37,234 bases of DNA, from contig JAAYVM010000191.1 of NCBI GenBank assembly GCA_012517145.1, positions 1 to 37,234 of the forward strand. Direction: 5' to 3'. Position numbers and translations under genes: made by a program. The stretch comes from Acholeplasmataceae bacterium (lineage in GTDB: Bacteria; Bacillota; Negativicutes; Acidaminococcales; Acidaminococcaceae). How positions within the stretch are numbered: the first letter of the stretch is position 1; each line of letters begins with the position of its first letter. This document shows, one piece after another, positions 21,499-35,475 of the stretch. The notes below the pieces were generated by a model that was not told where the DNA came from, ran no database searches, and saw only the letters and a program-made list of their open reading frames with translations.

Positions 21499-24027
21499 CT
21501 ATTTGTCACTTCCGCAACAATTTTTGTATTTTTTGCCGCTGCCGCAGGGACATGGGTCATTGCGCCCGATAGTCTCGCCTTTGACGACGGGCTTTTTAAC
21601 GTCTGCCTCGCTGTCGCCGCTGGGATTATTGACTGTAGCATTCTGCAAACGATCTTCAACCTTCGGTTGAGTAACCACGTTTACCCTGTATATATAGCGC
21701 ACGACATCATCCTGAATTGCATCAATCATTGCCTGGAACATATCATACGCTTCAAGCTTATATTCAACCAATGGGTCTCTTTGGCCATAAGCACGCAGCC
21801 CTACACCTTCGCGCAGCATATCCATGGCATCCAGATGCTGCATCCAGTGACTGTCAACAACTTTAAGCATTACAAGGTTTTCAAGTTCCCTCATAATCCC
21901 TGGAGTAATTGACTCTTCTCTTTGTTCATAATAATCTACAGCTAGGTTTTGCAAATACTCATTTAATTCTTCACGGCTCAGCGTCTGTAAATGCTCAACA
22001 GTTAAGGTATTAGGCGGTGCATAGAATTCTTCCGCATATGCAATCATCGCTGGGAAATCCCAATCCTCAGAATAAACATCCGGTGGAGCATACATTGCCA
22101 TCGTTCTTTCAACAACGCGTGTAACCATATCCATGATGTTTTCGCGCAAATTATTTTCCACAAGAATCTTTTTGCGCTGAGCGTAGATAACTTCACGCTG
22201 CTGATTCATAACATCGTCATATTCCAGAACATGCTTACGCATATCAAAGTTGCGCGATTCCACTTTCTTCTGCGCTGATTCGATGGATTTCGTTACCAGA
22301 CTATGTTCAATCGGTTCGTCCTCTTCCATGCCCAGTTTATCCATTATGCTGGAAATATTATCTGAACCAAATAAACGCATAAGGTCATCTTCCAGAGAAA
22401 GATAAAAACGTGTGGAACCAGGATCGCCTTGACGTGCGCAACGTCCACGCAGCTGATTATCAATACGTCTGCTTTCATGACGTTCGGTACCGATAATGTG
22501 AAGGCCGCCTAAAGCAGGAACAGCTTCGCCTAGTACAATGTCGGTACCACGGCCTGCCATATTGGTAGCAATCGTTACTGCGCCAAATTGTCCGGCATCA
22601 GCGATGATTTCGGCTTCCTTCTCATGGAATTTAGCATTCAAGACATTGTGAGGAATTCCGCGTTTTTTCAAAATATCAGAAAGCTCTTCCGACTGCGCTA
22701 TGGAAGTTGTACCAACCAAGACAGGCCTGCCTGTCTTATGGCATTCTTCTATTTCTTTAGCTGCCGCTTTATATTTGGCTTTCTTGGTTTTATAAATAAC
22801 ATCCGGGTAGTCAATACGTTGATTTGGCTTGTTGGTAGGAATAACTATTACATCCAGGCCATAAATCTTCTGGAACTCCTGTTCCTCCGTTTTAGCCGTA
22901 CCGGTCATGCCGGAAAGCTTATCATACATACGGAAGTAGTTCTGGAAGGTTATGGTAGCAAGTGTCTGGCTTTCACGCTCAACTTTAACGCCTTCCTTAG
23001 CCTCAATTGCCTGATGCAGGCCTTCCGAAAAACGACGTCCGAACATCAGACGACCGGTAAATTCATCAACAATAATAACTTCGCCATCTTTAACAACATA
23101 ATCTCTGTCACGATGCATGATTGCCTTTGCTTTTAAAGCCTGCATTAGCTGGTGCGAGAAATCGATGCTTGCTTCACCGGCGTACATGTTGGAAACACCA
23201 AGCATCTTTTCTGCTTTGGCAATACCAACTTCCGTCGGAGCTGCTGTCTTCAGTTTTTCGTCAACAGTATAGTCTTCTCCCTCAACTAATTGAGCAACAA
23301 CACGTGCCAAAACTTTGTAAAGATCTGTAGATTTTTCGCCCGGTCCGGAAATAATCAATGGTGTACGAGCCTCATCAACAAGAATACTGTCAACCTCATC
23401 GACAATTGCATAGTTAAGTGGCCTTTGTACCATCTGGTCAAGCGCAACGACCATGTTGTCACGCAAATAATCAAAACCAAATTCATTATTAGTTCCATAA
23501 GTTATATCTGCAGCATAAGCAGCTTTTCTTTCAGGAAAATCGAGTCCATGAATGATTAAGCCTACAGAAAGGCCTAAGAAATTGAAAACTCTTCCCATTT
23601 CCTGGCTGTCACGGCGAGCCAGATATTCGTTGACGGTAACAACATGAACACCCTTACCTGTCAGAGCATTCAAATAGGCAGGCAGCGTTGCGACCAGTGT
23701 CTTACCTTCACCGGTACGCATCTCTGCAATTTTGCCACGGTGCAGTACGCAGCCACCAGCTAACTGCACATCAAAATGGCGCAGACCAAGAACACGTTTA
23801 GAAGCTTCACGCACAACTGCGAAAGCCTCCGGCAATATGTCATCCAAAGTTGCACCTTTAGCAAGCCTGTCCCGAAATTCCTCTGTTTTTGCTGTAAGAC
23901 TGGCATCGCTCATATTTTCTATATCTTTTTCTAAAGCATTTACTGCATCAACATATACTTGAACTTTCTTTAATTCCTTTTCATTGGGATCACCGAAAAT
24001 TTTTTTCATTAAACTTTCGAGCAACAC
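21499..24027 (-). CDS. secA: Protein translocase ATPase SecA
   Basis: Motor ATPase that drives preproteins through SecYEG. Walker A is [11 protein letters not shown] near residue 104 and the DEAD-like box is [16 protein letters not shown]. The second helicase domain carries [13 protein letters not shown] and the [12 protein letters not shown] arginine finger region. The C-terminal zinc motif [13 protein letters not shown] is intact. At about 842 aa it is full length. Start: GTG at 24025-24027 and TTG at 24022-24024 both fit the AGGAG at 24033-24037; GTG is used here, and another GTG at 24033 overlaps that site. It has its own promoter just behind the hpf terminator. Confidence 0.96.
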
Positions 24028-24074
24028 AATCACTCCTCATTTTTCGCACTAAATCGGCCTACGCTCAATAGTAA

Positions 24075-24103
24075 ATTTTAACAGAACAGGCAGTAAAAGT
24101 CAA
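24075..24103 (-). promoter_or_regulatory. secA promoter
   Basis: Minus-strand -35 TTGACT (24098-24103) and -10 TAAAAT (24075-24080) with 17-nt spacing. The -35 touches the hpf terminator, so transcription restarts right after it. Confidence 0.75.
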
Positions 24104-24132
24104 AAAACCCGGGATGTACATCCCGGGTTTTT
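24103..24132 (-). terminator. hpf terminator
   Basis: A perfect 30-nt self-complementary sequence (AAAAACCCGGGATGT and its complement) with T runs on both sides. It lies 17 nt after the hpf stop. The symmetry would allow it to work in both directions. Confidence 0.92.
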
Positions 24133-24149
24133 GTAACATTTTCATGAAC

Positions 24150-24707
24150 TTATTTCAATTCAGGAGACAGTAAACCATAATCACCATCTTTGCGACGATA
24201 TACAACATTTACAGCCTCAAGCTCTTCATCAAAAAATACGAAGAAATCATGGTTCAAAAGATTCATCTGCATAATTGCTTCTTCAACACCCATCGGGCGC
24301 ATAATGAAACGTTTATTTCTGACAACCTTAAATTCAGGTTCTTCAACCGGAGCAGCTGATATCGCAGGCGCTTCCTCACGGAAGTTATTATATCTGCCTC
24401 TCATCAATTTTGTTTTGAATTTGTGAATCTGGCGTTCAATTTTTTCAATTACCAGATCAACAGAAGAGTACATATCCTTGGTTATTTCCTGGGCTCTGAA
24501 ATTCACGCCGCCTGCTGGGAAAGAAATCTCTACTACGCAATCACCAATGCGTTCGCCTTTAATGCTATCGCCTTTCTCTACTCTCATCAGTACAGAAATA
24601 TCACCAATATTTTTAAATTGTCTTGTAACTTTTAAAACCTTTTTCTCAATATAATCTTTTAGTGCCGGTGTTACATCAATGTTTTTACCACGTACATTTA
24701 CTGTCAT
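24150..24707 (-). CDS. hpf: Long-form ribosome hibernation promoting factor
   Basis: Binds the 30S decoding region and dimerises 70S ribosomes to 100S in slow growth. The N-terminal RaiA/HPF domain covers about residues 1-105 (MTVNVRGKNIDVTPALKDYI). A linker follows, then the C-terminal dimerisation domain (about residues 125-183, VVRNKRFIMRPMGVEEAI, ending GLLSPELK). At 185 aa it is the long type usual in Firmicutes. The ATG at 24707 is preferred, 8 nt from GGAGG at 24716-24720; an in-frame TTG at 24713 is only 2 nt from it. It is preceded by a candidate sigma-H promoter and is followed by secA and prfB. Confidence 0.95.
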   Translation of the reverse strand: MTVNVRGKNIDVTPALKDYIEKKVLKVTRQFKNIGDISVLMRVEKGDSIKGERIGDCVVEISFPAGGVNFRAQEITKDMYSSVDLVIEKIERQIHKFKTKLMRGRYNNFREEAPAISAAPVEEPEFKVVRNKRFIMRPMGVEEAIMQMNLLNHDFFVFFDEELEAVNVVYRRKDGDYGLLSPELK

Positions 24708-24768
24708 AGTCAAAACCTCCTTCTATAAAAAACAAAGCCAAAATCACTTTGTTTATTTCTTGCTTTAT

Positions 24769-24797
24769 AGATTCGGCATCAGTTGACTTATTCCTTC
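24769..24797 (-). promoter_or_regulatory. Candidate sigma-H promoter of hpf
   Basis: The minus strand has GAAGGAATA (24789-24797), an 11-nt spacer, then GCCGAATCT (24769-24777). This fits the sigma-H consensus RnAGGAwWW-N11-12-RnnGAATww at all but one position. The predicted start gives a 5' leader of about 55 nt. That leader includes a short A/T-rich hairpin with a U run at 24726-24753, just before the ribosome-binding site. No good sigma-A promoter was seen here. In Bacillus subtilis the orthologue yvyD is known to respond to sigma-H and sigma-B. Confidence 0.6.
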
Positions 24798-24879
24798 TAG
24801 CAATAAAGGAAAACGCTGATTTGATGCAAATTCAGGCCTTGAGAGGTTTAAATATGAAACAATTGAAACAATGTACCAT

Positions 24880-25599
24880 TTAGAGAATTTTTGATAAAAA
24901 GCTCTTGGTCCGCTCTTCTTTAGCACAGGTAAAAATAGCCTCCGGAGGCCCTTGTTCTACTATTTTGCCGCCATCAACAAAAATTACTCTGTCGCCAACT
25001 TCACGTGCGAAACCCATCTCATGAGTTACAACAACCATGGTCATACCTTCCTGCGCAAGGTCTTTCATAACATCCAGAACTTCTTTGATCATTTCTGGGT
25101 CCAGCGCGGAAGTAGGCTCATCAAACAACAATGCCTTGGGTTTCATTGCTAAAGCGCGGGCAATAGCCACCCTTTGCTGCTGCCCGCCGGAAAGTTGTTC
25201 CGGATAAGCATTTGCTTTGCTTTCCAAGCCTACCTTTGTCAAAAGGGTAAGAGCATTTTTTTCTGCTTCGGCTCTCGTCAGTTTACGTACTTTCATTGGC
25301 GCCAGCAAGAGATTTTCCATTACAGTCATATGCGGAAACAAATTGAAGCGTTGGAAAACCATACCGACTTCTCGACGGATTGCATTAATATTGGCCTCAC
25401 CGCTCAGTTCAATGCCATCAACAGTAATAGTACCGGAAGTTGGTTCCTCCAGATAATTTATGCAGCGTAAAAGCGTGCTCTTGCCTGAACCGGAAGGTCC
25501 AATTATTACAACTACCTCTTTTTCCGCAATTTCCAGGTCAATTCCCCGCAAAACTTCCAAAGTGCCAAAATTTTTGTGCAAATTACTAATCTTTATCAT
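24880..25599 (-). CDS. Polar amino-acid ABC transporter ATP-binding protein (GlnQ-like)
   Basis: Energises uptake through the adjacent permease. P-loop GPSGSGKST near residue 38, signature [14 protein letters not shown], Walker [14 protein letters not shown] and the switch histidine in [11 protein letters not shown] are all present. At 239 aa it has the usual length. The open frame runs further upstream, but ATG at 25597-25599 overlaps the permease stop as ATGA and gives the canonical [12 protein letters not shown] start. The family transports glutamine, glutamate, cystine or basic amino acids; the substrate is not deducible here. Confidence 0.93.
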
Positions 25600-26252
25600 T
25601 TCGTCTGGTACCTCCGCTCCAAATATGCCACGAAGCGTGAAATTGTAAATGTCATTATCAGATAAATGAAGGCCACTGCAAGCCAAATTTCAAAAGACGC
25701 ATAAGTACGCGCAATAATCAATTGTCCTCTTCTGGTTAATTCCTCAAACCCGATAACGGAGACCAGCGAAGAGTCCTTAAGCATGGCAATAAATTCATTG
25801 CCCAAAGGTGGAATAATTCTTTTGAAGGCCTGTGGCATAATTACGTACCGCATCGTTTGGTACCAGCTTAATCCAAGGGAACGGCCTGCTTCAGTCTGTC
25901 CAATATCAATTGATTGGATGCCACCGCGGAAAATCTCCGCAATATAGGCACCGCTGTTAATTGAACACGCAGCAATGGCAGCAATAAAAGGATCAATGCG
26001 TGAGCCCGTCAAAATCGGCAACGCGAAATAAACAAGAAAAATCTGTACCAACAGAGGCGTGCCACGAATGAAGTCCACATATATGTTAGCCAGATACTTA
26101 ACAGTTTTAATTGAAGACAGCCTGGCAACACCAACAATCATGCCTATAAGCAGACCAAGTCCAACACTCAAGGCCGTAATCTGTATGGTAATCCCGGCTC
26201 CTTGCAAAAGAAGAGGAAGTGCATTTTGTATGATTTCAAAATTCAAATCCAC
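25596..26252 (-). CDS. Polar amino-acid ABC transporter permease (HisM/GlnP type)
   Basis: Inner-membrane permease with the His/Glu/Gln/Arg/opine three-transmembrane signature and an EAA-loop segment ([26 protein letters not shown], residues about 126-151). About five hydrophobic segments are visible. The preferred start is GTG at 26250-26252, giving [18 protein letters not shown] and 218 aa. A TTG at 26270 is an alternative, and neither has a strong ribosome-binding site. It overlaps the ATPase gene by 4 nt. It is separated from the upstream binding protein by a hairpin that probably reduces its expression. Confidence 0.9.
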
Positions 26253-26308
26253 GCAAACACCAACTTTCAAAAAATATCATTAGAAAAAAATAGCTCAGCA
26301 AAGAAAAT

Positions 26309-26345
26309 CGGAGCACATCCTGGCAAAACGCTGCGATGTACTCCG
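26309..26345 (-). terminator. Partial terminator between binding protein and permease
   Basis: An 11-bp stem (CGGAGTACATC with GATGTGCTCCG, one G-U pair) and a 15-nt loop, followed on the minus strand by ATTTTCTTTGC. Such hairpins behind binding-protein genes commonly set a high ratio of binding protein to membrane subunits. Confidence 0.65.
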
Positions 26346-26363
26346 GTTTTGAAAATAACTTGA

Positions 26364-27134
26364 TTATTTTACTTGTTCGCCAAACCAAGTTTTATAAATT
26401 TTGTCGTATTCGCCGTTCTTTTTCAATTCGGCCAGGGCTTTATTAATGTCGCCAGCCAGCTTATCATTGCCCTTTTTCACAGCTATCGCATATTCCTCAG
26501 CGGTTACAACCTTGCCAACCATCTTAGCAAAATCTTTGCCGCCACCTTGTTGCAGGAAGTATGCAACTACAGGCAGATCGTTAACTACTGCGTCAACACC
26601 GCCATTTTTCAATTCCAAAGCAGCTTCTGTATTTGTATTAAATTCTACTACTTTCGCATCAGCAATCTTGTGAGCTTCCATAGCACCGGTAGTACCGATT
26701 TGTACAGCTATTTTTTTGCCTTTCAGACTTTCGATACCGGTAATAGCATTTTCATCCTTGCGCACCATGACAGATAAGCCTGATTTGTAGTAAGGCTCAC
26801 TGAATTTAACACTATTTGCACGTTCAGGTGTAACGGTCATACCAGCTGCAACAGCATCAATATTGCCAGCGTTAAGAGCAGGAATCAAACCATCAAAACC
26901 CATGCTTACGATTTCAACTTTCATGCCAAGTTGTTTGCCAATCGCACGCGCAAGATCCATATCGAAACCTGTATAGTCTTTACTGCCTTCTTTTTGGAAT
27001 TCAAAAGGAGCAAAAGTAGGCTCCGTGCCAACACGCAAAACCTTCTGCTCAGCCTTTTTCTCGCCGCCGCAGCCTGCCATCAACAAACCCAGAGCAAAAA
27101 TAAGAGTAATTGCTGCAAAAAAACTTTTTTTCAT
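26364..27134 (-). CDS. Amino-acid-binding lipoprotein, copy 2
   Basis: Periplasmic-type binding protein family 3 (SBP_bac_3), the substrate-capturing part of the transporter encoded downstream. The signal peptide ends in a lipobox LMAGC (Cys22), so it is membrane-anchored. Family segments include GTEPTFAPFEFQKEGS, GFDMDLARAIGKQLG and GIDAVAAGMTVTPER-like motifs, and IGTTGAMEAHKI. At 256 aa it is typical. It has its own promoter at 27167-27196, and AGGGGG precedes the ATG. It is a close relative of the neighbouring copy at 27236-28003 along its whole length. Confidence 0.93.
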   Translation of the reverse strand: MKKSFFAAITLIFALGLLMAGCGGEKKAEQKVLRVGTEPTFAPFEFQKEGSKDYTGFDMDLARAIGKQLGMKVEIVSMGFDGLIPALNAGNIDAVAAGMTVTPERANSVKFSEPYYKSGLSVMVRKDENAITGIESLKGKKIAVQIGTTGAMEAHKIADAKVVEFNTNTEAALELKNGGVDAVVNDLPVVAYFLQQGGGKDFAKMVGKVVTAEEYAIAVKKGNDKLAGDINKALAELKKNGEYDKIYKTWFGEQVK

Positions 27135-27166
27135 TTACCTGCCCCCTAGCGTTTTTATCTTCGCTA

Positions 27167-27196
27167 ATTATACAACCAAAAGACAGGGAAGTGCAA
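27167..27196 (-). promoter_or_regulatory. Promoter of binding-protein copy 2
   Basis: Minus-strand TTGCAC (27191-27196) and TATAAT (27167-27172), spacing 18 nt, upstream of the gene at 26364-27134. Confidence 0.7.
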
Positions 27197-27235
27197 CAAT
27201 TTTAGCACTCTTTGCGTTTTCTCAACAGGAATGTC

Positions 27236-28003
27236 TTATTTTTTTGGCAATTCGCCAAACCATTTTTTGTATAATTTATCGTATTCGCCATTTTGTTTCA
27301 AAGTGTCAAGAGCCTTATCGACATCCTTAGCTAATGCAGTATTACTCTTAGCTACAGCAATGCCATAATCCTCGGAAGTGAGTGTTTTACCAACAATCTT
27401 AGCAAAATCCTTGCCACCTTGTTGTAAGAAATAAGCCTCAACTGGCAAATCGCCGATAACAGCATCAACAGCTTTATTTTTTAATTCGAGACAGGCCTCA
27501 CCGTTAGTATTAAAGGAAGTAATCTTTGCGCCTGCAATTTTTTCAGCTTCCATAGCGCCTGTAGTTCCAATTTGTACGGCAATTTTCTTGCCTTTCAAAT
27601 CGGCAATATCATTAATTGCATTGTTGTCTTTGTTAACTACTATCGCCAAACCTGATTTATAGTATGGTTTAGAGAAATTAACTTTTTTTGCACGCTCATC
27701 AGTTATGGTCATGCCAGCTATAGCAACGTCGATGTTCTTAGCATCAAGAGCCGGAATTAAAGCATCAAAACCCATGCCTTGAATAGTGCATTTTTCATAG
27801 CCCATTTGTTTTGCAATAGCCTGAATAAGGTCAATATCAAAGCCTACAAAATCTTTGGAATTCTCTTTTTGGAACTCAAAAGGTGCAAAAGCCGGCTCCG
27901 TTCCAACAATTAGTTCCTTTTTTGCCTTGCTTCCGCCGCAGCCTGCAACTAATAAGGCAAAGACAAACATGCACAAACACACAATCTGGAATTTCTTTTT
28001 CAC
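27236..28003 (-). CDS. Amino-acid-binding lipoprotein, copy 1
   Basis: Second family-3 solute-binding protein, with lipobox LLVAGC (Cys22). It aligns end to end with the downstream copy, sharing KGKKIAVQIGTTGAMEA, FNTNGEACLELKN, AYFLQQGGKDFAKIVGK and a C-terminal NGEYDKLYKKWFGE. This indicates tandem duplication. The start is GTG at 28001-28003 behind AGGGGG. Differences are spread over the ligand-binding lobes, so the two proteins may feed one permease with different substrates (inference). A promoter lies between it and the RNA terminator upstream. Confidence 0.92.
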   Translation of the reverse strand: MKKKFQIVCLCMFVFALLVAGCGGSKAKKELIVGTEPAFAPFEFQKENSKDFVGFDIDLIQAIAKQMGYEKCTIQGMGFDALIPALDAKNIDVAIAGMTITDERAKKVNFSKPYYKSGLAIVVNKDNNAINDIADLKGKKIAVQIGTTGAMEAEKIAGAKITSFNTNGEACLELKNKAVDAVIGDLPVEAYFLQQGGKDFAKIVGKTLTSEDYGIAVAKSNTALAKDVDKALDTLKQNGEYDKLYKKWFGELPKK

Positions 28004-28047
28004 AAAAAATACCCCCTTAATTAATATTTATTCCTAAAACTTCTATT

Positions 28048-28075
28048 ATTATAAGGCATTTAAGAAAAAAAACAA
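28048..28075 (-). promoter_or_regulatory. Promoter of binding-protein copy 1
   Basis: Minus-strand TATAAT (28048-28053). The best -35 is TTGTTT (28070-28075) at 16 nt, which lies within the terminator of the upstream RNA gene. Confidence 0.55.
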
Positions 28076-28116
28076 TACCTTTTAAATGTATACATAAATA
28101 TCATTTAAAGGTATTG
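28065..28116 (-). terminator. Terminator of the raiA-type RNA
   Basis: A strong intrinsic terminator: CAATACCTTTAAATG pairs with CATTTAAAAGGTATTG (one bulge), loop of 13 nt, then eight T on the minus strand. It follows the closing stem of the RNA by 26 nt. Confidence 0.88.
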
Positions 28117-28142
28117 GCTTTTAAATACGGTATATTAAGAAA

Positions 28143-28346
28143 ACAACTCAGCTGACCTGGTTTTCGCCCCCACACTCGCCTGCAGGAAGTTTCGCTCCTA
28201 AGCGTTCTCGCTCCCCACTACTACCTCTCTCGCTTTTCGCGGCAGGACTTACTTCTAAGCTGCACCGTGCTCACAATACTTTGATTGCTTACGTGGATCG
28301 TTTCGCCTGCAACTGGCATCGATTTGCAACCACAGACCTGAGTTGT
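28143..28346 (-). ncRNA. Structured non-coding RNA, assigned to the raiA motif
   Basis: An island of 204 nt, GC-rich compared with its flanks and without a plausible reading frame, is bounded by a perfect 9-bp closing stem (ACAACTCAG with CTGAGTTGT). Inside it are several short hairpins and purine-rich joints with repeated GGCGAAA/GAGCGA-type sequences. It has its own promoter (28359-28387) and its own strong terminator (28065-28116), so it is a free-standing RNA and not a simple leader. The raiA motif is known as a conserved RNA of about 205 nt found near raiA/hpf and comF genes in Firmicutes. Length, closing stem and location between comF and hpf all fit. I assigned it from length and context, not from a covariance-model hit; a different RNA class remains possible. 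Confidence 0.68.
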
Positions 28347-28358
28347 ATCTCTTCGCAT

Positions 28359-28387
28359 ATTATAATTTCAAGTTGTCGAAATAGCAA
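28359..28387 (-). promoter_or_regulatory. Promoter of the raiA-type RNA
   Basis: Minus-strand -35 TTGCTA (28382-28387) and -10 TATAAT (28359-28364), spacing 17 nt. The predicted start is about 28352, a few nucleotides before the closing stem. Confidence 0.82.
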
Positions 28388-28546
28388 GAAAAATATGCTT
28401 CAAAGTAGATATATAGCTGTTTGACACAAATATCAATTATGGTTATACATAATTTTTTTCGCAACATTGCCCTCTAATACGTTTCTTTTGCTTCTTTTTG
28501 TAGTATACTGTATTTGGTTACATTATTTAGTTAAGGACGGATCGAC

Positions 28547-29149
28547 ATGCTTACCATTCCACAGTTCCTTGAATTTCCTAACGACGGAAAGACGAAGGAG
28601 CTATGCAATTTTTTCTTATCCATTTTGGAACAAAAGAATAAGACATTGTATTTGCATAGCCAGCAGGTAAGCAATTACTCCGTCAGTATATCTGCTAAAA
28701 TGGGCCTCCCTTTTGATGAAGTGGCCTGTATAAAAACAGCGGCGCTTCTGCACGACATCGGACATTTGGCAGTGCCCAACACCATTTTAAGTAAATATCC
28801 ATATCTGAGTACACGCGAGTTCTCGACCTACAAAAATCATTCTCTGGCTGGAGCAAGCATGCTGGAAAACATACCAGAGTTTTCTCATATTATGAAGATT
28901 ATCCTGTGTCACCATGAAAATTGGGACGGTACAGGCTATCCCAAACGTTTAAAGGGCGTTAACATTCCTCTGGGAGCACGCATTATTGCTGTAGCCAATC
29001 ATTACGACCGCATAATCAACCCCTGTACAGAACACTGGCAAAAGTCCCATGCTGAGGCAACACGAGAGTTGCAGGACCGGGCCGGTCTGAGCTTTGACCC
29101 TGATGTAGTCAATGCCTTTTTAAAATCCGTAATATCTGCAAAAAAATAA
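28547..29149 (+). CDS. HD-GYP-type phosphohydrolase without sensor domain
   Basis: A 200-residue single-domain protein of the HD-GYP family, whose studied members hydrolyse cyclic di-GMP. Visible motifs are HDIGH (residues 69-73), KNHSLAGA (H98), HHENWDGTGYP (residues 122-132) and ARIIAVANHYD (144-154). Two positions differ from the usual pattern: HDxGK is HDIGH, and the VAD of the metal site is VAN (Asn151). Activity may therefore be altered. No sensory or receiver domain is attached. ATG at 28547 has AAGGA about 11 nt upstream. It points away from the RNA gene and converges on comF, with a shared terminator. Confidence 0.85.
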   Translation: MLTIPQFLEFPNDGKTKELCNFFLSILEQKNKTLYLHSQQVSNYSVSISAKMGLPFDEVACIKTAALLHDIGHLAVPNTILSKYPYLSTREFSTYKNHSLAGASMLENIPEFSHIMKIILCHHENWDGTGYPKRLKGVNIPLGARIIAVANHYDRIINPCTEHWQKSHAEATRELQDRAGLSFDPDVVNAFLKSVISAKK

Positions 29150-29180
29150 CATTCCGTTTTCACATTGGAAAACGGAATGT
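29149..29180. terminator. Bidirectional terminator between HD-GYP gene and comF
   Basis: A perfect 13-bp stem (ACATTCCGTTTTC and complement) with a 6-nt loop. It has TTTTTATTTG on the plus side and ATTTTTTTGC on the minus side, and serves both converging genes. Confidence 0.88.
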
Positions 29181-29182
29181 TT

Positions 29183-29854
29183 TTATTTGTCTTCTGCACC
29201 GCCAGCAAAAGCCATGACCCAGACATGGCCTGCTCCTTGCTTGCGAAGAACATGCGCTGCCTCTTCGGCAGTAGCACCGCTGGTAAAAATGTCATCAACA
29301 AGTAAAATCGGCCTTTTGCTAATATCTTTGATTGTACTGAAACAGCCCCGAACATTCTTACGGCGTTCGTTGCGGCCCAAACCATATTGAGGTTGCGTTG
29401 AACGAATTCTTGTAAGTGCTTCATACCAGACAAAACCGTGTTTCAGGGACCAGCTTCTAAAAATACCCTGTGGTACATCATAGCCCCGTTCCTCCACACG
29501 CTTCCTATCCGTCGGTATCGGAACAACAACAATATTTTTGGGCAAATTCCATATATTGCAAACACGCTTCGGTGTTTCAAGTATTGCCATTTCCTCAGCC
29601 ATAGCTGCAAGCAGCCTTTTCTTGCCATGAAATTTTACGTCATGCAGAGCTTTCTTTATGGCCGCATCATAGCTATAAAATAAACATATGCTTTCAATAT
29701 CAGGACAACAATAAGCTCTCGGCTGCAATATTCTAAAAGCTGCGAGCTTTCTTCTGCAGGCTGGACATAGAATTCCCTCAGAAATTCTTTGCCTGCATTC
29801 AACACAGACAGGTGGAAAAAACACATCTGTAAGTAACTGCCAAAAACTGGGCAC
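29183..29854 (-). CDS. ComF family phosphoribosyltransferase-like protein
   Basis: ComFC-type protein linked to DNA uptake in competent bacteria. It has an N-terminal zinc ribbon (CVECRQRI and LCPACRRKL) and a phosphoribosyltransferase fold with VPIPTDRKRVEERGYD, the TQPQYGLGRNERRKNVRG segment and the PRPP loop LLVDDIFTSGAT. At 223 aa it is usual. The usual RGFNQ is RGYDV here, a mild divergence. GTG at 29854 is preceded by GAGG. It follows recD2 by 20 nt. No comFA helicase gene is adjacent. Confidence 0.9.
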   Translation of the reverse strand: MPSFWQLLTDVFFPPVCVECRQRISEGILCPACRRKLAAFRILQPRAYCCPDIESICLFYSYDAAIKKALHDVKFHGKKRLLAAMAEEMAILETPKRVCNIWNLPKNIVVVPIPTDRKRVEERGYDVPQGIFRSWSLKHGFVWYEALTRIRSTQPQYGLGRNERRKNVRGCFSTIKDISKRPILLVDDIFTSGATAEEAAHVLRKQGAGHVWVMAFAGGAEDK

Positions 29855-29874
29855 TTCACTTCGCCTCTAGACTA

Positions 29875-32034
29875 TTAAATGAGATTGCTTTCTTCCTGCA
29901 TTCTCTCCGCCAACAAAGAATAACGCTTTCTCATGTCGTCTTTGCTGACAGCTGTGTTTACCGCCGCACGACTGCCAACCAATATTACCCTCTTCTTAGC
30001 ACGCGTTACACCGGTATAAAACAGATTGCGCTGCAGCAGCATGAAATGGCTCGGGACAAGCGGCATTATAACTGAAGGATATTCACTTCCCTGAGCCTTG
30101 TGAACACTCATCGCGTAGGCCAGCTGTAATTCATCCAATTCGCTTTGTGCATAATCAACTCTTTCACCTTCTGGCCTTTCCGGGAAAAGAACTCTGACAG
30201 TTGTTCCGTTAATCGTGTCTATCCTGCCTATATCGCCATTAAAAACATCCTTCTCGTAATTATTGCGAATCTGCATAACCTTGTCACCTGTCCGCAATAA
30301 ACCATTAGGTGTCATTATTTCATTCTTACCTGGTTGCGCGGGATTCATTCTTTCCTGCAGAAGCTTATTCAAATTCATAACGCCGCAAGGATTTTTATGC
30401 ATTGGTGCAAGAACCTGCACGCCTTCCCAACCCTCATCGGCAGTTATTCTCGCGTAGTTTTCTACTATATACTCCGCTGCCTCTTCCTCATCATTGATTT
30501 CCGTAAAACAAAAATCATTGCATTTATCACATTCCGGCTGTAATCCTTTGTTGATTCTATGCGCATTTAAGACAATAGGGCTTAGTGCCGCCTGGCGAAA
30601 AATGCTGTTTAAACGAACCACGGGCATCATTTTGCTGCGTATGATATCTTTAAGCACAGTTCCCGGGCCCACTGAAGGCAGCTGATCAACATCGCCGACA
30701 AGAATCAGGCGGCAGCCTACTGACACCGCTTTCAAAAGATTATGGGCAAGTGTAATATCAAGCATTGAAGCTTCATCAACAATAATTGCATCTGCTTCCA
30801 AGGGGTTTTCTTCATTGCGACCAAAAAAATAGGCATCCCCGTTCGGTGTATACTCCAGCATTCTATGTACTGTGGAAGCCGGATGTCCTGCTGATTCTGC
30901 GAGCCTTCTGGCAGCGCGTCCGGTAGGAGCAGCCAGTAAAATTTTGCAGCCAGCCTTTTCCAAAACAGCTAAAATACCTTTGACAACAGTCGTTTTACCC
31001 GTTCCCGGTCCACCAGTCAAAATAAAGATACCATGCTCCACAGAGGCACTTATCGCTTCTATCTGCGCCTCCGCTAATTTCAGGCCGGTCTCATGTTCCC
31101 AGTTTTCTATAATGGACTGGTAATCAACCTGCCATATTCTGTTTACCTTATCACGTAAATACAACAGACGCCTGGCGACACCAATCTCTGCACGATAAAG
31201 ATACTCCGGGTAGACCAGGCGTGTACCGGCAAACTCTTCCTTTCTCAACAAGTCATCCCTGATCAGCTTTTTATAAACCTCATAAACATCAGCGTAAGCA
31301 ATTTGTAAAAGCCTGGCCGTTTCCGTGAGCAATTTATCTTCTGGAAGACAAGTGTGACCGGCAGAGGCAGTCTGCATCAAGGCAAATTCAATACCTGCTT
31401 TTATCCTGCTCTCATTTTCAGGTTTAATCCCCATTGACATCGCCATTCTGTCAGCTGTACGAAATCCTATACCAGATACATCACTTGCAAGACAATAAGG
31501 ATTATCTTCAATCCTCTTCAAGGCTGTATTACCATATGTCGCTTGTATCTTCCCTGCATAATGAGAACTTATACCATGCTCTTCCAAAAACAGCATCAGC
31601 TCTTTCATATCTGAAAGTTCGGCATAAGAAGAAGCAATAGTATCGGCTTTCTTTTTACCAATCCCAGAAACTTCTGTTAAACGATATGATTGTTCGCCAA
31701 GAATTTTCAATGTATCATCACCGAACATTTCGACTATCCTGGAGGCCATAGCCCTGCCAACGCCTCGTACAGCACCCGATCCTAAAAAACGCTCAATGCC
31801 TGCTGCTGAAGATGTCTGGATTGTTTGCCAGGTAAATGCCTGAAACTGTCTGCCAAACTTCGGATGTTCAGCCCAATTGCCTGACAACCTGACTTGTTCT
31901 CCCAAAAAAGGCGCTAATCCTTTATAAACAACTGATATTCTTTCCATCTTTTTACTGCGAACACGAAAGACAGAAAACCTACCATCTTCAGCCTGAAATA
32001 CTATATTTTCAATTGTTGCTTCCAACTCATCCAT
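29875..32034 (-). CDS. recD2: ATP-dependent DNA helicase RecD2
   Basis: Superfamily 1B 5'-3' helicase of the RecD2/YrrC type, acting in DNA repair and replication-fork maintenance without RecBC. An N-terminal OB-like region is followed by helix-hairpin-helix segments (FLGSGAVRGVGRAMA, LTEVSGIGKKKAD). The helicase core has Walker A LTGGPGTGKTT, DEASMLD, VGDVDQLPSVGPG and the C-terminal VHKAQGSEYP. The preferred start is ATG at 32032-32034 (MDELEATIENIVFQ), behind GGTGGTG. The open frame extends to an ATG at 32091, which lies upstream of the predicted -10. Length is 719 aa. Confidence 0.94.
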   Translation of the reverse strand: MDELEATIENIVFQAEDGRFSVFRVRSKKMERISVVYKGLAPFLGEQVRLSGNWAEHPKFGRQFQAFTWQTIQTSSAAGIERFLGSGAVRGVGRAMASRIVEMFGDDTLKILGEQSYRLTEVSGIGKKKADTIASSYAELSDMKELMLFLEEHGISSHYAGKIQATYGNTALKRIEDNPYCLASDVSGIGFRTADRMAMSMGIKPENESRIKAGIEFALMQTASAGHTCLPEDKLLTETARLLQIAYADVYEVYKKLIRDDLLRKEEFAGTRLVYPEYLYRAEIGVARRLLYLRDKVNRIWQVDYQSIIENWEHETGLKLAEAQIEAISASVEHGIFILTGGPGTGKTTVVKGILAVLEKAGCKILLAAPTGRAARRLAESAGHPASTVHRMLEYTPNGDAYFFGRNEENPLEADAIIVDEASMLDITLAHNLLKAVSVGCRLILVGDVDQLPSVGPGTVLKDIIRSKMMPVVRLNSIFRQAALSPIVLNAHRINKGLQPECDKCNDFCFTEINDEEEAAEYIVENYARITADEGWEGVQVLAPMHKNPCGVMNLNKLLQERMNPAQPGKNEIMTPNGLLRTGDKVMQIRNNYEKDVFNGDIGRIDTINGTTVRVLFPERPEGERVDYAQSELDELQLAYAMSVHKAQGSEYPSVIMPLVPSHFMLLQRNLFYTGVTRAKKRVILVGSRAAVNTAVSKDDMRKRYSLLAERMQEESNLI

Positions 32035-32067
32035 ACTTTCACCACCATTACCGAACCTATGTTCTTT

Positions 32068-32073
32068 ATTATA
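32068..32073 (-). promoter_or_regulatory. recD2 promoter (-10)
   Basis: TATAAT on the minus strand with TG one base before it (extended -10) and a weak -35. Its -35 position overlaps the -35 of the divergent promoter at 32093-32121, so the two operons share a control region. Confidence 0.6.
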
Positions 32074-32092
32074 GCATACTTCTGGCATCATT

Positions 32093-34169: not shown

Positions 34170-35345
34170 TTAATGATGGAATAAGCGTAACCCTGTAAAG
34201 GCCATTGCTATATTATATTTATCACAAGTTTCGATGACATTGTCATCACGAATGGACCCGCCTGCCTGAGCGATAAACTCAACACCACTGCGATGAGCAC
34301 GTTCAATGTTGTCACCGAATGGGAAGAAGGCATCCGAACCAAGAGCTACCCCCTTCAGAGTTGCCAGCCATGCTTTCTTCTCTTCACGGCTCAGGCGTTC
34401 CGGCTTCTCAGTGAAAAATTGTTCCCAGATACCATCAGCCAAAACATCCATATCATCATCAGAAATATAAACGTCTATCGTATTGTCCCGATCCGGACGT
34501 CTGATACTTTCTTTGAAAGGCAGTGACAGAACTTTAGGATTTTGTCTCAGATACCAGTTATCAGCTTTATTGCCGGCTAAGCGAGTGCAGTGAACACGTG
34601 ACTGCTGTCCAGCTCCTATGCCTATAGCCTGACCGTCTTTAACGTAACAAACAGAGTTCGACTGAGTATACTTAAGAGTAATCAAAGCTATCAAAAGATC
34701 CCTGGCAGCTGCTTTCGGTATTTCTTTATTATTTGTCGGGCGGTTTATTAGCAGTTCTTCAGTAATTTTCGCTTCATTCCGTCCCTGTTCAAATGTTACG
34801 CCAAATACTTCCTTGCTTTCCACAGGATCAGGTACATAATTCACATCAATTTTGATGACATTATAAGTACCTTTGCGTTTTGATTTCAAAATTTCCAACG
34901 CTTTGTCGGTATAACCAGGAGCAATAACACCATCAGATACTTCACGAGCCAGCATTGTTGCCGTTTGTTCATCACAAATATCAGAAAGCGCTACGAAATC
35001 ACCATAGGAAGACATCCTGTCAGCACCGCGCGCCCTTGCATAGGCATTTGCAAGCGGAGAAAGTTCCAGGTCATCGACATAATAAATTTTTTTCAAAAGA
35101 TCTGACAATGGCAAGCCAACCGCTGCGCCCGCAGGGCTTACATGTTTAAAAGAAGCTGCTGCCGGCAGTCCTGTTGCCTCTTTTAATTCCTTTACCAACT
35201 GCCAGCTATTTAACGCATCAAGAAAATTAATATAGCCGGGACGTCCGTTTAACACTTCTACGGGCAAATCGCTGCCATCCTTCATATATATGCGTGCCGG
35301 GTCCTGATTAGGGTTGCAGCCATACTTCAATTTCAGTTCATTCAT
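34170..35345 (-). CDS. Stand-alone AICAR formyltransferase (PurH C-terminal domain type)
   Basis: Transfers a formyl group from 10-formyl-THF to AICAR in purine synthesis. The 391-residue protein corresponds to the AICAR transformylase half of PurH. The catalytic Lys-His pair is in SFKHVSPAGAAVG (Lys67, His68), with YTQSNSVCY, GIGAGQQSRVHC and SDAFFPFGDN also conserved. The N-terminal IMP cyclohydrolase (MGS-like) domain of bifunctional PurH is absent, so cyclohydrolase must be encoded elsewhere. ATG at 35345 has AGGGGA at 7 nt. It is preceded by a ZTP riboswitch, which senses accumulation of its substrate-derived nucleotide. Confidence 0.92.
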   Translation of the reverse strand: MNELKLKYGCNPNQDPARIYMKDGSDLPVEVLNGRPGYINFLDALNSWQLVKELKEATGLPAAASFKHVSPAGAAVGLPLSDLLKKIYYVDDLELSPLANAYARARGADRMSSYGDFVALSDICDEQTATMLAREVSDGVIAPGYTDKALEILKSKRKGTYNVIKIDVNYVPDPVESKEVFGVTFEQGRNEAKITEELLINRPTNNKEIPKAAARDLLIALITLKYTQSNSVCYVKDGQAIGIGAGQQSRVHCTRLAGNKADNWYLRQNPKVLSLPFKESIRRPDRDNTIDVYISDDDMDVLADGIWEQFFTEKPERLSREEKKAWLATLKGVALGSDAFFPFGDNIERAHRSGVEFIAQAGGSIRDDNVIETCDKYNIAMAFTGLRLFHH

Positions 35346-35369: not shown

Positions 35370-35466
35370 AAAAAAGCCGCCACTCCGGGCTGCTTCTGCC
35401 CAGACGGTCGGCTCATACTAGTCATACTCCATGTGGTTATCCACTTCCGTCAGTTATATGACCTCT
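35370..35466 (-). promoter_or_regulatory. ZTP (pfl) riboswitch with terminator platform
   Basis: The minus strand has P1 (GTCATA with TATGAC), the TAACTGACGGAA joint, a GTGG-ATAA-CCAC hairpin, GGAG, a linker and then CCGTCTGGGCA (35397-35407). That is one base from the hallmark CCGCCUGGGCA. The pseudoknot GACGG (35447-35451) with CCGTC (35403-35407) is conserved by covariation: consensus GGCG/CGCC becomes GACG/CGTC. A terminator hairpin (35370-35413, AGCCG...CGGCT then TTTTTT) uses the CCGTCTGGGC strand. Ligand-stabilised folding should therefore block termination, making an ON switch in response to ZMP/ZTP. This fits the purine gene it controls. Confidence 0.9.
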
Positions 35467-35475
35467 CTAGAATCG

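Follow-up and report, generated by a model that had tools for sequence, protein, structure and literature searches.

A single-copy raiA (ModT) RNA between comF and hpf and the presence of its family in relatives without Spo0A and GGDEF proteins

A structured RNA element lies between comF and hpf in the window, i.e., the whole 37,234-nt stretch of DNA that was analysed, and this raises the question of what the RNA is, whether it is expressed independently of its neighbours, and which role it could play. raiA (ModT) is a known, very conserved bacterial RNA. The published lead for its function is c-di-GMP and sporulation.

Identity and fold of the RNA

The RNA and its expression signals, all on the minus strand, are as follows.

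28143–28346, minus strand: raiA (ModT) RNA core, 204 nt, variant with P6-P7-P8 (Rfam RF03072, covarying structure)
28359–28387, minus strand: raiA promoter, sigma-A type, TTGCTA-17-TATAAT, expected start near 28352 (site scan, conserved position)
28065–28116, minus strand: raiA intrinsic terminator, bulged hairpin followed by U8 (folding)
28048–28075, minus strand: probable separate transporter promoter, TTGTTT-16-TATAAT, with a weak −35 (sequence)

The window was compared with all 4227 Rfam families using cmscan, which gave two features above the cut-offs, raiA and a ZTP riboswitch. The match to RF03072 has a score of 195.6 bits relative to the cut-off of 101.3 (E = 2.1e-50) and extends over the model from 1 to 209, end to end. 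Neither 6S RNA nor any other of the 4227 families exceeded its gathering score at this site. An earlier note on this DNA had identified the element as raiA and proposed a scan with the raiA covariance model and every other Rfam model; the outcome is clearly raiA, far over the threshold and with no rival family. The 204-nt element with a 9-bp closing stem that it described is located exactly at 28143–28346 on the minus strand, and the nine base pairs of P1, ACAACUCAG/CUGAGUUGU, are perfect. The genome scan gave a copy number of one. Of 41 relatives, 37 carry raiA, among them 31 of the 32 that are near-complete.

In the window RNA, P3a and P3b both form, and the pseudoknot pk-1 consists of seven out of seven pairs between AGUUGCA and UGCAGCU at RNA positions 33–39 and 83–89. 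P6, P7 and P8 with the AGUA/GAA letters are also present, which indicates the larger variant 2. The model numbering is identical to that of the C. acetobutylicum cryo-EM study (PMC11751092), at least through the 5' half, and the features are therefore directly comparable. The C. acetobutylicum RNA likewise has pk-1, at model positions 33–39 with 86–92, as well as P3a, P3b and P6-P7-P8 with the AGUA/GAA letters of the E-loop. Monomer structures of raiA containing both pk-1 and pk-2 have been published (PMC11751092; PMC12286853).

The covariation was evaluated in 28 aligned relatives of the same class, where 500 shuffles and a sliding of the pairing partner by one to three columns were used as controls. 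Standard pairs occupy 98.4% of the pair cells, and both sides have changed in 21 of the 53 pairs. The covariation of raiA is 0.349, compared to 0.163 in the shuffles and at most 0.076 after sliding; none of the measures was reached in the 500 shuffles, and all of them collapse when the partner is slid. P1 is 95.5–100% paired with changes on both sides in nine pairs, and pk-1 is 98.5% paired with compensatory changes on both sides in two pairs. The regions of the 2-bp pk-2 are conserved, its two invariant pairs being too short and too conserved for covariation. These alignments indicate that all core raiA helices and the pseudoknot pk-1 of the cryo-EM structure form and covary in the relatives. 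Judged from its sequence, the element is a single-copy, ordinary and well-formed member of the known raiA (ModT) family.

Expression signals and neighbouring genes

The genes around the RNA are as follows.

21499–24033, minus strand: secA (Pfam)
24150–24713, minus strand: hpf/raiA, long hibernation-promoting factor (Pfam PF02482 and PF16321)
24880–25686, minus strand: ABC ATPase, GlnQ type (Pfam PF00005)
25596–26270, minus strand: ABC permease (Pfam PF00528)
26364–27134, minus strand: second solute-binding protein, SBP_bac_3 (Pfam PF00497, 7.2e-48)
27236–28003, minus strand: solute-binding protein of an amino-acid ABC transporter, SBP_bac_3 (Pfam PF00497, 8.9e-46)
28547–29149, plus strand: divergent stand-alone HD-GYP-like protein, 200 aa, degenerate motif (Pfam HD_5, 8e-38)
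29148–29181, both strands: bidirectional terminator between the HD-GYP gene and comF
29183–29854, minus strand: comF, ComFC-like, DZR_2 and phosphoribosyltransferase (Pfam matches weak and below the cut-off; syntenic tblastn matches in relatives)
29875–32091, minus strand: recD2 helicase (Pfam)
35391–35467, minus strand: ZMP/ZTP riboswitch (cmscan, 52.7 bits)

The Pfam assignments agree with the earlier calls of comF, the HD-GYP gene, the two solute-binding proteins (SBPs), the permease, the ATPase and hpf. On the strand of raiA, comF lies 0.84 kb upstream and hpf 3.4 kb downstream, which is the comFC/hpf neighbourhood.

The promoter ascribed to the RNA, which was described as its own, consensus-like and with 17-nt spacing, was found as TTGCTA at 28387–28382 and TATAAT at 28364–28359. 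Its score is among the top two for sigma-70-like sites in the region 24000–30000, where 14 such sites were found relative to 12.6 expected, so that a single site is not above chance; its position is kept in the relatives. An exact TATAAT is located 6–17 nt 5' of the motif in 31 of 37 relatives, and the mean best promoter score is 9.4 out of 12 in the relatives compared to 7.4 in shuffles.

The claimed U8 terminator was borne out by folding, which gave −16 kcal/mol for the hairpin (z = −5.1, with none of 200 shuffles as stable) before the U8. A simple terminator scan misses this bulged hairpin, which folding reveals. None of the terminator's bases takes part in the raiA fold. A full transcript of about 288 nt is predicted, of which the core makes up about 204–210 nt. 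The TATAAT of the probable transporter promoter is at 28053–28048, its weak −35 overlaps the T-run of the raiA terminator, and this TATAAT recurs in many relatives whose gap is at least 100 nt.

Having its own promoter and its own terminator, raiA is expected to occur as a free RNA in this species. This part of the earlier proposal stands; whether raiA is independent of the next gene depends on the lineage. In many relatives there is no terminator between raiA and the next gene (simple scan: 11/35, 3.9 expected; the scan misses the bulged type), and free raiA would require processing there. In three relatives (G003, G012 and G017) the SBP starts 30–44 nt 3' of raiA with no visible terminator, which indicates that raiA is probably contained in a longer transcript in these relatives, at least at first.

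The trans action, abundance, isoforms and SigA promoter of ModT have been published for C. difficile (PMC11706538), and the RNA in the window resembles it in length, full model match, pk-1, the P6–P8 variant, the housekeeping-type promoter, a terminator giving a long isoform, and the comF–hpf neighbourhood. However, the ModT isoforms are 260 and 215 nt (PMC11706538), the longer being shorter than the about 288 nt predicted here; here an HD-GYP gene lies on the comF side and a four-gene transporter on the hpf side, and the host family has no Spo0A. Unlike in C. acetobutylicum (PMC11751092), for which a long isoform is unreported, there is a clear terminator. The earlier note expected the RNA to rise in stationary phase, which is not the behaviour of ModT in C. 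difficile, where it is abundant in the exponential phase and later falls, except for the long isoform on sugars (PMC11706538).

The transporter had been regarded as an insertion at this locus, which the relatives contradict. The SBP-SBP-permease-ATPase block lies between raiA and hpf in most relatives of family f1 and in most other families sampled, and outside the class it occupies the same place in four of eight raiA loci examined. On this comparative evidence, the four-gene transporter has long stood beside raiA and cannot be called an insertion specific to this genome. In most other families, an ORF with two treble-clef zinc-finger domains (zf_Tbcl PF13451 and zf_Tbcl_2 PF23477) begins about 33–39 nt 3' of raiA, which there, too, probably starts out within a longer transcript. 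It was seen after raiA in G030, G033, G038, G040, L241 and L243–L247, which include other classes, with no obvious terminator between; the zf_Tbcl genes of the window's own genome are on other contigs. In G006 and G019, secA follows about 290 nt after raiA, and no match to the transporter or hpf was found in that stretch.

Spo0A, GGDEF and HD-GYP proteins in the class

The HD-GYP gene is indeed situated between comF and raiA as first described; the adjacency has to be understood differently. It is divergent from raiA in 23 of 23 f1 genomes with the locus, at a gap of 101–349 bp, and convergent with comF, and it also adjoins raiA in f28 and f31. In motile families, the orthologue lies beside comF in the same orientation, usually 10–35 kb from raiA, the distance reaching 55 kb in G040 and about 356 kb in G214 of f7. 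The gap read in G089 and G047 consists of flagellar genes (FlgM, FlgL, FliW, CsrA, flagellin and FliS; Pfam, G089). The HD-GYP gene adjoins raiA in f1, f28 and f31 because a flagellar block of 10–17 kb is absent, and the separating genes of the motile families are likewise missing here.

The HD-GYP protein has HDIGH in place of HDxGK and VAN in place of VAD and keeps GYP, and thus departs from the motif of c-di-GMP phosphodiesterases. As in the HD-GYP phosphodiesterases 4mcw (PmGH) and 5z7c (specific for 3'3'-cGAMP), it belongs to the HD_5 fold family and all metal-site histidines are present. In contrast to these enzymes, the lysine of HDxGK is replaced in nearly all orthologue rows (by H, Q, L, E, S, M or T), VAD is often VAN with asparagine for the aspartate, and the protein is kept in genomes without GGDEF. 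The degeneracy is class-wide and includes motile, GGDEF-rich species. From these motifs, it is unlikely that the substrate of the orthologues is c-di-GMP. In the profile search, the closest named match among the matches listed is from Megasphaera micronuciformis, the others being mostly generic HD-GYP proteins; no raiA was found within 2.5 kb of the M. micronuciformis match.

The occurrence of these proteins was surveyed in 300 genomes of the class, with E < 1e-50 as the threshold for HD-GYP orthologues and at least 95% completeness for near-complete genomes. raiA is present in 181 genomes, GGDEF in 216, Spo0A in 56 and the HD-GYP orthologue in 167. Spo0A is absent from 130 of the 181 raiA genomes (85 of 126 with at least 95% completeness), and GGDEF is absent from 56 raiA genomes of at least 95% completeness, which are spread over five families. 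As raiA is kept in relatives that have neither Spo0A nor any GGDEF protein, its conserved target cannot lie in sporulation or in c-di-GMP synthesis. The gene content thus robustly indicates that the core role of raiA would require neither of them. The window's own genome has GGDEF genes, and c-di-GMP signalling therefore exists in this species; the statement on GGDEF-free genomes concerns the relatives. That raiA occurs in non-spore-formers was noted earlier by Lence et al., and no statement on GGDEF-free raiA hosts was found in a limited search of the raiA/ModT literature. The retention of raiA in relatives without Spo0A and without GGDEF, as read from their genomes, would thus be a new but modest result.

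raiA is present in 164 of the 167 genomes with the HD-GYP orthologue. The three exceptions are fragmented or incomplete genomes: the G186 contig stops short of the place where raiA would be expected, and completeness is 75% and 89% for the other two. In the large family f15, none of the sampled genomes has raiA or the HD-GYP orthologue, although GGDEF genes are numerous in most of them. According to a SecA tree built from 30 genomes, HD-GYP was lost several times with raiA kept, and raiA was lost only two or three times. Among the six independent pairs in which HD-GYP differs, a median of one also differs in raiA, which allows no significance; no significant coupling can therefore be claimed. 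A functional couple of raiA and HD-GYP was considered and set aside, being unproven on the SecA tree, with a shared absence that is mostly that of one clade.

Probable role of the RNA

It is highly probable that the locus carries a single-copy raiA gene with its own promoter and terminator, which gives an abundant, pseudoknotted, trans-acting RNA whose conserved target is neither sporulation nor c-di-GMP. The RNA would start at its housekeeping-type promoter just 5' of the motif, end at its intrinsic terminator, giving the predicted length of about 288 nt, and fold into the known pseudoknotted raiA architecture. As suggested by the published work on other species, it would accumulate as an abundant, stable monomer and would act in trans, being most likely a structural RNA bound by protein and not a switch for the adjoining genes; the work on C. 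difficile and C. acetobutylicum further suggests that raiA may help cells to leave exponential growth. The most likely role, by analogy, would be that of a housekeeping-like structured RNA that acts in trans, probably with protein partners, and supports the exit from exponential growth.

Three other explanations have to be weighed. That the stretch is another RNA, such as 6S or tmRNA, or a chance fold is hardly conceivable: no support for it was found, and the sole Rfam match above the cut-off together with the class-wide covariation rules it out. It is improbable, to a far lesser degree, that raiA is a cis-acting, riboswitch-like leader of the next gene, i.e., the transporter here and the zinc-finger ORF in most other families. 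The short gaps to the SBP and the zinc-finger ORF with no obvious terminator, the transporter as a downstream neighbour across the class, and the Rfam type of RF03072 ('Cis-reg; riboswitch') agree with such a leader. However, raiA and the transporter are separated in the window by a strong terminator and by a probable promoter of the transporter itself, the terminator and the raiA fold have no bases in common, and the downstream gene varies among zinc finger, SBP, SecA (G006 and G019) and HPF (G021). A continuous leader with one regulated gene and an expression platform, as expected for a cis-acting riboswitch, was not found. The published mutants were rescued in trans (PMC11706538), and trans-complementation in both C. 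difficile and C. acetobutylicum argues against a cis role (PMC11706538). The terminator, the probable transporter promoter and this complementation also uphold the earlier view that raiA does not regulate hpf in cis. In the lineages with short gaps and a probable longer transcript, a cis role stays alive despite the trans-complementation, and the treble-clef zinc-finger ORF is a possible partner or cis target of raiA.

That raiA and the divergent HD-GYP gene work jointly in c-di-GMP signalling is slightly less probable still. It would agree with the higher c-di-GMP seen when modT is mutated in C. difficile, with the divergent or adjacent arrangement in f1, f28 and f31, with the lack of any further HD_5 gene in 17 f1 genomes, and with the near absence of HD-GYP genomes lacking a raiA match. 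However, the HD-GYP orthologue is kept in 54 of the 56 near-complete, GGDEF-free raiA genomes, its motifs are degenerate class-wide, the adjacency is accounted for by the missing flagellar block, and the six pairs of the SecA tree allow no significance. Somewhat less remote, and still unlikely, is that raiA belongs to a pathway independent of c-di-GMP and sporulation, in which the degenerate HD-GYP protein, kept after the loss of flagella and every GGDEF protein, handles another nucleotide or RNA ligand.

The retention of raiA in dozens of small-genome, non-sporulating, GGDEF-free relatives suggests that the published lead reflects a downstream effect in Clostridia and not the core function. 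The GGDEF-free raiA genomes are a good place to seek this core function, and f15, where raiA was lost, is a natural comparison group. The interest of the raiA in the window is confined to what the comparative data say of the whole family.

Elsewhere in the window, the ZTP riboswitch lies directly upstream of a gene with the AICARFT/IMPCHase domain (34170–35345, minus strand), which is the classical purine-linked arrangement.
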